Assembly (NCBI RefSeq): GCF_900103485.1
Contig: NZ_FNHW01000001.1
Coordinates: 62,001 to 126,000 of the forward strand
DNA: 64,000 bases
Direction: 5' to 3'
Source of the DNA: Fictibacillus solisalsi
Lineage (GTDB): Bacteria; Bacillota; Bacilli; Bacillales; Fictibacillaceae
Shown here piece after piece: positions 34,820 through 41,089 of the stretch. The number at the start of each line of letters is the position of its first letter. Within the stretch, counting starts at the first letter, position 1. Both the position numbers and the translations under genes were made by a program. Below the pieces are notes generated by a model that saw only the letters and a list, made by a program, of their open reading frames with translations, was not told where the DNA came from and searched no databases.

Positions 34820-35275
34820 ATGAACCAAGAACTTTACAGGCAATTCGAAATGACAAGAGGATTTTTTTTAAGAAGCATCAGTAAGATTTCACCAGAATTG
34901 GTTGATATTCAGCCACAGGGGTATAACAACACGATACACTGGCACATCGGACACGTGTTAACCGTTACCGAACAGTTTTTATTTGGTAAATTCTTTTCTT
35001 TGCCCGGGAAATATGTCGAATGGTTTGGCAAGGGTACACAGCCGTCTGACTGGCAAGGAGATGTTCCGTCCGTCGAGGAATTGACTCCCGAGCTTGAGAA
35101 ACAGCTTCTCCGCATTAAGGAAATTCCGGAAGAAGCCCTTGAGCAAAAGCTGGAAAAGCCGTTCCTTGGGTTGGAAACGTTCCGGGAATTGGCCGCCATG
35201 TCTCTTTTCCATGAGTCCAACCATTTGGGCCAGCTGCACTCTATGAAACTAATGCTCGAACGCACACCACACTAA
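34820..35275 (+). CDS. DinB family protein
   Basis: 151 residues, four-helix bundle of the DinB/YfiT type. Three conserved metal-binding His are apparent: one in TIHWHIGHV and two in FHESNHLGQLH. Members include thiol transferases using bacillithiol (BstA) and several uncharacterised proteins. AAAGGAG precedes ATG. Monocistronic with terminator. The reaction cannot be assigned. Confidence 0.85.
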   Translation: MNQELYRQFEMTRGFFLRSISKISPELVDIQPQGYNNTIHWHIGHVLTVTEQFLFGKFFSLPGKYVEWFGKGTQPSDWQGDVPSVEELTPELEKQLLRIKEIPEEALEQKLEKPFLGLETFRELAAMSLFHESNHLGQLHSMKLMLERTPH

Positions 35276-35280
35276 AATAG

Positions 35281-35313
35281 CCCGGAGGACATTTCAGGTT
35301 CTCCGGGTTTTTT
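35281..35313 (+). terminator. Intrinsic terminator of the DinB gene
   Basis: CCCGGAG and CTCCGGG form the stem, followed by TTTTTT. Confidence 0.82.
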
Positions 35314-35386
35314 ATGTACAGGTAAAGGGCTGAAAGTAACAGAGGTCTTATGTTTTATGTAAAGGCATTCACCACTAAACTTGAAG

Positions 35387-35527
35387 TCAGGAGTGAATGA
35401 CTGAATGTAAAAAATCGATATCATCTTTAATCTTTTCTTTTAATTGATGATCTCTGCAACGTATATATTCGCCAGTGAGTGTAGCGATTTCTTTCATAAA
35501 CAAAACAACCTCTGTATGTTTTAGCAT
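35387..35527 (-). CDS. 46-residue helical protein of unknown function
   Basis: MLKHTEVVLFMKEIATLTGE to IDFLHSVIHS. ATG 35527 is preferred over an upstream extension because GGCAGGGAGA precedes it. The sequence would form two amphipathic helices with a charged turn (RCRDHQLKEKIKDD). The size and helix-turn-helix hairpin recall Spo0E-type small proteins, but the Spo0E signature is absent. Expression is not supported by other signals. Confidence 0.4.
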   Translation of the reverse strand: MLKHTEVVLFMKEIATLTGEYIRCRDHQLKEKIKDDIDFLHSVIHS

Positions 35528-35723
35528 GCATTCTCCCTGCCTTGATTTAAAATATATAGTTCTTCTTCTCCATCCATTCCTCTTTTTTCGCCAAATTAAA
35601 CCATGTTCTGCGACGTTTTTATAATTTAAGAGAAAAAGGTGTACATCAGTCTGTGACAAAAGGCGGATTGCGTGAAAGTTGAATAGAAGCTATGATGACA
35701 TGGAAAATAAAATATATTTTCTG

Positions 35724-35815
35724 CTAGGGGAGCCCGTAGCCGGGCTGAGAGAGGGGAGCACGATCCCTTTGACCCTTTGAACCTGATCTGGGTTATACCA
35801 GCGTAGGAAAGTAGG
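35724..35815 (+). promoter_or_regulatory. TPP riboswitch (THI element) of thiC
   Basis: The conserved core is present: GGGAGCCC...GGGCTGAGAG, the CTTTGACCCTTTGAACCTGA segment and CTGGGTTATACCAGCGTAGG. Thiamine pyrophosphate binding to this leader lowers expression. A terminator hairpin follows about 50 bp downstream, and thiC is the regulated gene. Confidence 0.95.
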
Positions 35816-35863
35816 AGTCGAAGTTAACGGTATGTTTGTTTGCATGTTTCTTTGTCTATCCTG

Positions 35864-35899
35864 TCGGGTTCTATTGATTAGAACCCGGCTTTTTTATTT
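35864..35899 (+). terminator. Riboswitch expression-platform terminator
   Basis: CGGGTTCTA pairs with TAGAACCCG across 5 bases, followed by GCTTTTTTATTTT. It lies between the TPP aptamer and thiC, so control is by transcription termination. Confidence 0.85.
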
Positions 35900-35932
35900 T
35901 ACCGTTACTTCGCTATTCCCCGTTGCGTGTAG

Positions 35933-37893
<1,961 letters not shown>

Positions 37894-37997
37894 ACTTGCT
37901 GGTGGATGCATATTTCTGGAAAAGGACACTAAACTAGATATAGTGTGTTTATACGTGACACCAGACCAAGAATGCAGGTGAAAACGGAGGAATCGGT

Positions 37998-38375
37998 ATG
38001 AACAATTGGCTGCAGCAAGCTATAAGCTGGACAGAACAAAGACTGGGACAAGCTTCCGAGGGATTCAGGGAAATTTTCAACAAGGTGAAGCAGGAATCCT
38101 CAATGAGTGTGAATGACTTGGCTACATTTATCATGCTCCATCCGGAAACCGTAAAAAAACGGCAGGAATTACTAGGGCTTACCTTTGCCACCTATACTTT
38201 AAAAATGGGAGAGACAGATTTGATTTTGGAAGCAAAGGAGAATTCCTTGCCAAAAGTACTTGAATGCCTGGTGGTCAACAGGAATAAAGTCATTTCCCAT
38301 TATCGTTCCTATGACAAAAAGAATAAGACAATAATGGCCGTACCGGATGACATTAAAAACTATAATAGTCATTAA
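37998..38375 (+). CDS. Protein of unknown function
   Basis: 125 residues, starting MNNWLQQAISWTEQRLGQ after CGGAGGAATCGG. The first half is helical (with FREIFNKVKQES), the second looks beta-rich (LGLTFATYTLKMGETDLILE). No signal peptide or recognised motif. The stop codon overlaps the first unit of the hairpin repeat array, which ends in a terminator. Confidence 0.6.
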   Translation: MNNWLQQAISWTEQRLGQASEGFREIFNKVKQESSMSVNDLATFIMLHPETVKKRQELLGLTFATYTLKMGETDLILEAKENSLPKVLECLVVNRNKVISHYRSYDKKNKTIMAVPDDIKNYNSH

Positions 38376-38588
38376 GGCGGTTCTCAGGCAGTAAGCACCT
38401 CCTGAAGAGAACCGCCAAGGCGGTTCTCAGGCAGTGAGCACCTTCTGAAGAGAACCGCCAAGGCGGTTCTCAGGCAGTGAGCACCTTCTGAAGAGAACCG
38501 CCAAGGAGGTTCTCAGGCAGTGAGCACCTTCTGAAGAGAACCGCCAAGGAGGTTTGCAGACTGAGAGTCCCTCTTAAAAAGAACCGCC
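38374..38588. repeat. Five tandem 43-bp units carrying terminator-like hairpins
   Basis: Units start at 38374, 38417, 38460, 38503 and 38546. Each reads AAGGCGGTTCTC, a 20-bp middle, then GAGAACCGCC. Units 2 and 3 are identical; unit 1 differs at two bases in the middle, unit 4 has GGAGG for GGCGG, and unit 5 is strongly diverged. GAGAACCGCC of one unit and GGCGGTTCTC of the next form a 10-bp hairpin across the AA joint; a stem within each unit is also possible. The last arm (GAACCGCCAATGCGGTTC) is the final terminator. There are no unique spacers. Confidence 0.9.
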
Positions 38589-38607
38589 AATGCGGTTCTT
38601 TTTTTAT
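38576..38607 (+). terminator. Terminator ending the hairpin array
   Basis: AAAAAGAACCGC and GCGGTTCTTTTTTT form a strong stem with CAAT loop; T-run follows. Confidence 0.88.
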
Positions 38608-38896
38608 TAAGATTTTTTAGAATATTTAAAAAGTACTTGTAAGAAAAGAGGAATCATATTAAGATTATGTCGAAACGTTTCAATTTTTACCCTCCTATTT
38701 TTATTCATCAAGAAGAGTAATTACCTCAATAATGTAAGCGGTCTTACCTGTTGCTAATTGACCATTTTTGCGTACACCTTGATGGACACTGCAGTAAAAC
38801 GCAGAATGTAGTTCTTGCGGATCTGGAAATCCAGCGAAACAAAGATCATTGTAAAAAAAAGAAATGACAGCATTGCTGCAATAAGGAGGGATCGAT
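38608..38896 (+). other. Intergenic region with a cre-like site and a GAAACGTTTC palindrome
   Basis: Contains GAAACGTTTC (38672-38681), a LacI/CcpA-type half-symmetric core, and TGTAAGCGGTCTTA (38733-38746), which fits the CcpA cre consensus at 13 of 14 positions and also contains the arms GTAAG/CTTAC. No clear ORF or RNA gene. A carbohydrate-related gene follows. Confidence 0.55.
38733..38746 (+). promoter_or_regulatory. Candidate cre (CcpA) site
   Basis: TGTAAGCGGTCTTA matches TGWAANCGNTNWCA except for one base near the 3' end. It lies about 150 bp before the TIM-barrel isomerase gene, suggesting carbon catabolite control. Confidence 0.5.
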
Positions 38897-39685
38897 ATGC
38901 AAAGAAAAGCCTTACAGCTTTATACGATTAAAGAACTGTGTGAGAAGGACTTTATCGGAACGCTGAAAAATGTGGCACAGTGGGGATATGAAGGTGCCCA
39001 GTTTGCCGGATTTTATGATACACCAGCCCGGCAGTTGAAAAACACGCTGTCTGAACTGGGATTGAAGCCTGCAGGCAGTCATACGGGTCTGGACCAGCTA
39101 AAAGAAGATGCCCTTAAGCGGCAAATCGAATACAGCCATGAAATTGGGAATGAACTTATCATTCTGGCTTATTTGACGGAAGAGAACAGACGGAACCTGA
39201 ATGATTATAAACGGGTAGCCGATACTTTGAACAAAGCTGGCGACCTTTTGAAATCAGAGGGGCTGAAACTCGGATACCACAATCATGATTTTGAGTTTAA
39301 AAAGCAGGAAGCGCTTACCGGTTATGAGATTCTCTTGTCGGAGACCGATCCGTCACTTTTGTCTTTTGAACTGGATGTGTATTGGGCAGCCTATAAAGGT
39401 TATGACGTTGTTCAGTTTATGGAAACACTTCGTGACCGTCTCATCACCCTCCATGTGAAAGACATGGCAGTAAAGGGAACAGAGCGCAAAAGCACGATTT
39501 TGGGTACAGGTGAACTTGATCTTGCGTCAATTGTATCAAAAGGCAAAGAGATGGATGTTTCCTGGTTCGTCGTCGAGCAGGAGGACTTTGAAACCGATCT
39601 GGAGACGGCTGTCCGGGAAAATGTTAAAGTTCTTCAAGACCTTTTAAATAAGAAAACTGATAAAACGGGGATTTCAGGAGAATAA
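38897..39685 (+). CDS. Sugar phosphate isomerase/epimerase-type TIM barrel protein
   Basis: 262 residues, AP endonuclease 2/xylose isomerase-like TIM barrel. Typical metal-ligand segments: KLGYHNHDFEF, LSFELDVYWAAYKG, LITLHVKDM and WFVVEQED. AAGGAGGG precedes ATG. Relatives include inosose dehydratase and 3-keto-sugar-acting enzymes; the exact sugar is unknown. A cre-like site upstream and a glucanase gene convergent downstream suggest carbohydrate catabolism. Confidence 0.85.
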   Translation: MQRKALQLYTIKELCEKDFIGTLKNVAQWGYEGAQFAGFYDTPARQLKNTLSELGLKPAGSHTGLDQLKEDALKRQIEYSHEIGNELIILAYLTEENRRNLNDYKRVADTLNKAGDLLKSEGLKLGYHNHDFEFKKQEALTGYEILLSETDPSLLSFELDVYWAAYKGYDVVQFMETLRDRLITLHVKDMAVKGTERKSTILGTGELDLASIVSKGKEMDVSWFVVEQEDFETDLETAVRENVKVLQDLLNKKTDKTGISGE

Positions 39686-39686
39686 G

Positions 39687-39722
39687 AAAATGCCTGCCAG
39701 GCAAAGCTGGCAGGCATTTTCT
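39687..39722. terminator. Bidirectional terminator
   Basis: AAAATGCCTGCCAG and CTGGCAGGCATTTT form a perfect 14-bp stem between convergent genes. Confidence 0.88.
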
Positions 39723-40950
39723 ATAGAGGTTTCTCGGTGAAACCGGTCAGTTCCAGTCCTTTTTTGGCAAATTTGTTTTTCATGAACCATTTCCAGACCA
39801 GCCCGGTACGGTGGTTTTCAATCATGAGCAGTGAAATGCCCTTATCAATCCCGATGACATCGCGGCCATACCAGGGAGGAGAAACATCCAGATTGTAGGC
39901 ATCCCTGAATCCGTATTCTCCCCAAAGCTCAGGAACATGAGTATAATAATGCTGCATCGCATCCAGGCTTTCTTTTGGTGTAAAAGGAATGGAACCGATG
40001 GCGCCTGCCGGAGGAACGGTTCCATCAGAATGATGCTGATCGTTGGCTCCTGACCGCCCGGAAGGGGGTGCTCCGTAATCTCCTCTGTAGCCGTAAGGCC
40101 CATCGCAGGCCGTAAGCCCCCATGAGTTGGAACCAAGCGTCTTGAAGGCTTCCGATTCATCCATGCTATATTGACGGTGGGCACGCGTGGCTTTAACCGA
40201 GTTCTCCCACCAGTCAAGGCCGTCCCGGTCCGTCTTGTTCTGTAAATCAAACCAGGCATGGGAAAATTGATAAGTGAACAGAGAGCCAGTCCAGGTATAA
40301 ATGAACAGAGGAACATCACCATATGTACTGACCTGCCGGTGGAAATCGTAAAACATCTCAGGATCCACCGGATGTGTAGGAGAAGCTGCCGCGAGAAAAT
40401 ACATCATGAATTGCTCGGCATACATGTCCCAGGCGCCCCAATGGCCTCGCTCAGGTGTATATCCTTTGTAAAACTGGTTGGTCTCCGGATTTCTATACCA
40501 CTCCCAATCCACGCGTTCAAAAAGCTGTTGTGCTTTTTCCTTCAACTTTCCGCCAAAATATTCACCAGCCGTAATGGCCCCGCACACGGCAATGGCTGTA
40601 TCAATGATGGAAATCTCGGAATTATCATACCGTTTGCCCGTTTCCATCGAAAGAAAGTGATAGAAAAATCCGTTCAATTCTTCTGCGTGCTGCAATAGTG
40701 TATCAAGTGTCCCCTCGGCGCGCTGCCGAGCTTCATCCGTGGTTATCCACCATCGTTCTGCACCGATGACAAGCGCAGTTAATCCGAATCCGACCGAAGC
40801 GACAGAGCACTTCTCGGGATCACCCGGAGAACGGTCTCGAAGTAATCCGAAGCCCGGGCTGCCAGGAGTGCTATTGGCCTCCCGCCAGAAAAACAGGAAG
40901 GAATGTTTGCTTTCAAGTTCCATTAATTCTTCATTGGAAAGTGGTGTCAT
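39721..40950 (-). CDS. Glycoamylase-domain protein (GH144-type beta-1,2-glucanase-like)
   Basis: 409 residues, (alpha/alpha)6-barrel glycoamylase-like domain. Landmarks are HSFLFFWREANSTPGSPGFG near the start, DNSEISIIDTAI, FQFSHAWFDLQ-type motif (YQFSHAWFDLQ) and SWGLTACDGPYGY. The GH144 family hydrolyses beta-1,2-glucans. No signal peptide, so it acts in the cytosol, perhaps on imported oligosaccharides. GAGGAGG precedes ATG. Activity on beta-1,2-glucan is a family inference. Confidence 0.8.
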   Translation of the reverse strand: MTPLSNEELMELESKHSFLFFWREANSTPGSPGFGLLRDRSPGDPEKCSVASVGFGLTALVIGAERWWITTDEARQRAEGTLDTLLQHAEELNGFFYHFLSMETGKRYDNSEISIIDTAIAVCGAITAGEYFGGKLKEKAQQLFERVDWEWYRNPETNQFYKGYTPERGHWGAWDMYAEQFMMYFLAAASPTHPVDPEMFYDFHRQVSTYGDVPLFIYTWTGSLFTYQFSHAWFDLQNKTDRDGLDWWENSVKATRAHRQYSMDESEAFKTLGSNSWGLTACDGPYGYRGDYGAPPSGRSGANDQHHSDGTVPPAGAIGSIPFTPKESLDAMQHYYTHVPELWGEYGFRDAYNLDVSPPWYGRDVIGIDKGISLLMIENHRTGLVWKWFMKNKFAKKGLELTGFTEKPL

Positions 40951-41089
40951 TATTCAACCTCCTCAACAGTTGATACGTTTTTAGCTATGCAATCCTCAAA
41001 CCCAGTGTAACATAAGAAAATTTCTGAATTTTATAAAAAGTAAAGAATAAGTGGGTATATAAGTAATAAATCCAAAGGAGGAGATACAT

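Follow-up and report, generated by a model that had tools for sequence, protein, structure and literature searches.

The window (the whole stretch of 64,000 nucleotides of Fictibacillus solisalsi DNA analysed here) contains, at the end of a 125-codon ORF, a 43-bp tandem array that is probably a young single-locus minisatellite grown at the site of an ordinary Rho-independent terminator, with its last hairpin as the working terminator and units 1–4 as near-neutral passengers. The array (43 bp × 5.3) would have grown by local tandem duplication at the terminator that ends the transcript of the ORF. Repeats of this kind can grow by replication slippage or by hairpin-assisted template switching, and we infer growth by one of these routes here.

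Structure of the tandem array

TRF reports a tandem array at 38374–38599 with a period of 43, 5.3 copies, 90% matches, no indels and a score of 340, against best scores of 37 to at most 59 across 30 dinucleotide shuffles of the window. The array is far above chance, and the 43-bp repeat described in the first-pass annotation is borne out by this comparison. The ORF and the units are as follows.

37998..38375, plus strand: 125-codon ORF, its stop codon touched by the array
38374..38416, plus strand: unit 1 (U1), 40–41/43 identical to U2–U4, 5′ arm beginning straight after the TAA
38417..38459, plus strand: unit 2 (U2), identical to U3
38460..38502, plus strand: unit 3 (U3), identical to U2
38503..38545, plus strand: unit 4 (U4), C-to-A in the 5′ arm (GGAGG), 3′ arm without compensation
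38546..38588, plus strand: unit 5 (U5), diverged (31–32/43), GGAGG in common with U4, 3′ arm forming the left arm of the terminator
From 38589, plus strand: truncated sixth unit, following U5

The first two bases of the array are the A's of the TAA stop codon (38373–38375), and the overlap with the upstream gene that had been noticed earlier amounts to these 2 bases. Units U1–U4 agree with one another at 40–43 of 43 positions and U5 agrees with the other units at 31–32 of 43, as had been described (four near-identical units and a diverged fifth); this pattern would fit recent duplication of one unit. The statement that all five units carry both arms holds loosely, but the exact 5′ arm GGCGGTTCTC is confined to three units (U1–U3) and the exact 3′ arm GAGAACCGCC to four (U1–U4), the variant arms being GGAGGTTCTC in U4 and GGAGGTTTGC and AAGAACCGCC in U5. 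The unit is palindromic with 10-bp inverted ends, the array is intergenic, and its head-to-tail copies of a unit within the range of about 10–100 bp are those of a minisatellite. A CRISPR array was considered and rejected: the units are contiguous, their 21-bp middle part is itself repeated, and there are no unique spacers.

The terminator at the end of the array

The last hairpin of the array is an intrinsic terminator by its features.

38576..38605, plus strand: intrinsic terminator, 12-bp stem 38576–38587/38592–38603, loop CAAT, T-run 38599–38605

The 3′ arm of U5 pairs here with the 5′ arm of the truncated U6, across the unit border, forming a G+C-containing stem with a short loop and a run of seven T's (38599–38605) at once after it; the stretch 38575–38606 folds at −15.5 kcal/mol. 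The terminator is reported on both strands in our own scan and is absent on either strand from a stricter consensus scan. The A-run at 38576–38580 before the stem is a weaker 5-T run on the minus strand, and to judge from the sequence the last hairpin may be bidirectional, stopping antisense transcripts too.

The T-run is present once, after the last hairpin only. None follows the hairpins of units 1–4, which thus lack the form of an intrinsic terminator: GGCAGTGA or GACTGAGA comes after the inter-unit hairpins (1/2 to 4/5), and AAGG after the intra-unit ones. Because only the last hairpin has a T-run, the array is not a set of five terminators, and the hairpin formed by U5 and truncated U6 is likely to be the one working terminator. 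The earlier observation that the array ends in a T-run terminator built of the same arms was therefore correct, whereas the proposal that a normal terminator had been duplicated head to tail stands only in part. Terminator-type arms are indeed found in tandem where relatives keep one normal terminator, but the whole terminator was not copied, since the T-run lies nowhere inside the array; the pairing of the working terminator across the unit border likewise argues against duplication of a terminator contained within one unit.

A promoter-like element lies downstream.

38637..38681, plus strand: promoter-like TTGTAA-17-TAAGAT (by eye, 8/12), some 32 bp past the T-run, and then palindrome GAAACGTTTC

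The element at 38637 does not reach the consensus scan's cut-off, and its promoter-like part is kept in two congeners (F. enclensis and F. fluitans). From its position, the last hairpin would insulate this element, as a single terminator would in the congeners. The palindrome GAAACGTTTC itself (38672–38681) lies just past the promoter-like element, and we take it to resemble a LacI/CcpA-type operator.

The orthologous site in congeners

The 125-codon ORF, for which no Pfam or NCBIfam family was found, has matches in 10 of the 60 genomes searched, comprising its own genome, five of congeners and four that are more distant; a sixth congener (G001) has no match to it. With one genome per species in the sample, the terminator comparison covers the five congeners, F. 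enclensis (ORF identity 96%), F. fluitans (85%), F. terranigra (62%), Fictibacillus sp. FJAT-27399 (58%) and G006 (60%); in the four distant genomes the ORF is 30–37% identical. All five congeners have one plain terminator directly after the ORF, and the array is absent. Both flanks of the terminator align in F. enclensis and F. fluitans, including the downstream promoter-like element.

Arms of AACCG/CGGTT are found in four of the five congeners, as in the window's terminator, and G006 has CCCG/CGGG. Within 664 kb of the F. solisalsi genome such arms occur in 5 of 321 terminator-like rows, corresponding to three hairpins of which two are counted on both strands; two of the five rows are the array's last hairpin on its two strands. 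The rarity of these arms (5/321), a motif chosen after looking, favours the view that the present terminator descends from a terminator shared with the congeners.

The further notion that the 43-bp unit descended from the relatives' terminator is suggestive at most. Ten local alignments, of two array pieces (U5 plus terminator, and U2U3) with the terminators of the five relatives, were each compared with 500 shuffles and with 284 other terminators of the F. solisalsi genome. The numbers of controls as good as observed (of 500 shuffles; of 284 terminators) are given below.

F. enclensis: U5 plus terminator 22; 86. U2U3 104; 26
F. fluitans: U5 plus terminator 198; 214. U2U3 2; 0
F. terranigra: U5 plus terminator 0; 33. 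U2U3 14; 15
FJAT-27399: U5 plus terminator 40; 86. U2U3 38; 15
G006: U5 plus terminator 4; 41. U2U3 305; 144

Only F. fluitans against U2U3, one among ten alignments, is set apart by both controls; F. terranigra and G006 against U5 plus terminator are set apart by the shuffles only, and the others are nearer chance.

Gene content downstream of the terminator was inspected by eye (38690–38896 of the window; L014 4666–8200; L044 6770–7377). F. fluitans has an 821-codon ORF with a glycosidase-like look and a 363-codon oxidoreductase-like ORF. F. enclensis showed no intact counterpart of either at this place, and in the window the end of the oxidoreductase survives as a mere remnant, with NVVLADLE at about 38808 (cf. 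NVVLAALE).

Folding and pairing

Two partners are open to each 3′ arm, namely the 5′ arm in its own unit and the one in the unit that follows. The intra-unit 41-nt hairpins of U1 to U5 fold at −19.9, −19.7, −19.7, −14.0 and −10.5 kcal/mol, and the inter-unit 24-nt stretches at −17.3, −17.3, −11.6 and −5.0 kcal/mol, with −13.2 kcal/mol for the last one. U4 and U5 have in their 5′ arms a C-to-A change, GGCGG to GGAGG, that disrupts one base pair without compensation, and U5 has further changes. The weakening of the intra-unit hairpins in U4 and U5, together with the uncompensated arm change, is what is expected without selection on pairing.

The array region as a whole has a very strong fold (−116.8 kcal/mol, z −8.15 against shuffles), as is to be expected wherever an inverted repeat is itself repeated. 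This fold and the strong intra-unit hairpins of U1–U3 (−19.7 to −19.9 kcal/mol) speak for a functional 3′-UTR stabiliser or transcription barrier kept by selection, the stacked hairpins of which would stop 3′ exonucleases or slow down RNA polymerase; roles as 3′ protectors or transcription barriers are discussed for REP/BIME arrays in PMC3733652. We nevertheless consider this explanation unlikely, given that the array is absent at the site in five of the five congeners examined, that the arm change in two units is uncompensated, and that T-runs are absent inside the array. Under the preferred explanation, a minisatellite grown at a terminator site, units 1–4 are hairpins without T-runs that would be near-neutral and would provide at most a highly structured mRNA 3′ end, perhaps with some added 3′-end protection.

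In equilibrium folds, from which co-transcriptional folding may differ, the computed terminator probability is 0.49 for the natural array, 0.90 with U5 alone, and 0.87 when all bases through the 15th past the stop codon's T are masked, as by a ribosome. Replacement of the last unit gives 0.17 with U2, 0.02 with U1 and 0.87 with U4, and in local folds the length of the folded stretch decides between the terminator and a nested alternative. The idea that selection tuned the divergence of U5 so that its own hairpin spares the terminator was rejected. U4 in the last place gives 0.87, and randomly diverged last units were as good or better for the terminator in 178 of 200 trials in the array and, when the unit stood alone, in 82 of 200; the divergence of U5 is therefore no evidence of tuning. 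Selection for pairing or for terminator tuning is not visible. A ribosome at the stop codon would cover the first 5′ arm, and the mask raises the computed terminator probability from 0.49 to 0.87, so read-through into the promoter region downstream could be adjusted by translation of the 125-codon ORF, copy number and arm variants serving as dials; the switch of pairing register that this would entail, with 3′ arms pairing in their own unit or with the next and the terminator forming in the second register, is very improbable.

Copy number and uniqueness of the repeat

The identity of U2 and U3 and the division of the genome assembly into 14 contigs would be compatible with the array being partly an assembly artefact of uncertain copy number. 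Such an artefact is nonetheless improbable: substitutions tell U1, U4 and U5 apart, so a multi-unit array must exist, and ordinary paired reads can reach across 226 bp.

The 43-bp repeat has no second place in its own genome, and its unit core, allowing up to 3 mismatches, is found in 0 of 6 congeners. No copy beyond its own genome was detected among the 60 genomes searched, none beyond its own locus in 397 genomes of the order or in plasmids and phages (searches in which a diverged short unit would be missed), and none in viral contigs by exact 25-mer search. A REP/MITE-like origin, in which a small palindromic element, mobile or dispersed, inserted here and then multiplied, would accord with the unit's inverted 10-bp ends, palindromic form and intergenic position, but is largely refuted by these searches and has hardly any probability left. 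Assignment to REP/BIME was rejected for want of many dispersed genome copies, and assignment to MITEs, despite the inverted ends, for want of dispersed copies, the array being a single locus in both respects.

The array unit folds at −0.50 kcal/mol per base, and no other tandem array (period at least 18, score at least 60) with a unit fold below −0.31 kcal/mol per base was found in 46 stretches (964 kb) of its own genome and the congeners. Other tandem repeats were seen along the way. FJAT-27399 (G002) has neighbouring two-copy repeats of 100, 66 and 34 bp (L048 16193–16392, 17692–17823 and 17871–17938), two of which share a CAGGAGTCTCGCA core, and the F. solisalsi genome has a G+C-rich 27-bp repeat × 4.4, possibly inside a gene (L063 15700–15818; G000:C4 near 2665700).

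A known RNA family was also rejected. Rfam gives 7 matches on 35000–41000 at E up to 1, of which only the upstream TPP riboswitch passes its gathering score, and the four overlapping the array are far below theirs (score/gathering: rsmX 23.4/56, mir-9229 21.8/71, MIR4374 20.8/105, TLS-PK3 20.1/80). The TPP riboswitch (85.8 bits) lies upstream of thiC in an ordinary arrangement at 35716–37720. Among open-licence papers searched by title or abstract start, none was found to describe the expansion of a terminator into a tandem array.

Comparison with known systems

An ordinary local repeat is the likeliest description of the array, which is mildly curious at most and probably recent and incidental. 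It offers a clean example of a terminator site turned into a minisatellite within one lineage, with the terminator still present at the end, and if copy number changed read-through it would provide a natural 1-to-5 unit series for upstream hairpins competing with a terminator.

Like REP/BIME elements and tandem REPIN clusters, its units are palindromic, intergenic and in tandem; REPs occur as many dispersed copies (PMC3733652, PMC3116915), whereas the unit of the array occurs at one locus only. Bacterial intergenic minisatellites or VNTRs offer another comparison. The 'BrickBuilt' MITE of P. gingivalis contains a 23-bp minisatellite (PMC4596501) and shares with the array a short unit placed head to tail, an intergenic position and, in some cases, proximity to a terminator; the array differs in being a single locus without MITE ends around it and in having a unit that carries terminator-type arms. 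Its last hairpin is like a Rho-independent terminator in its 12-bp stem, 4-nt loop, 7-T run and position shortly after an ORF, and a terminator stands at the orthologous position in five congeners; it is unlike one in that five direct-repeat units, sharing its arms and without T-runs, precede the hairpin in the window.
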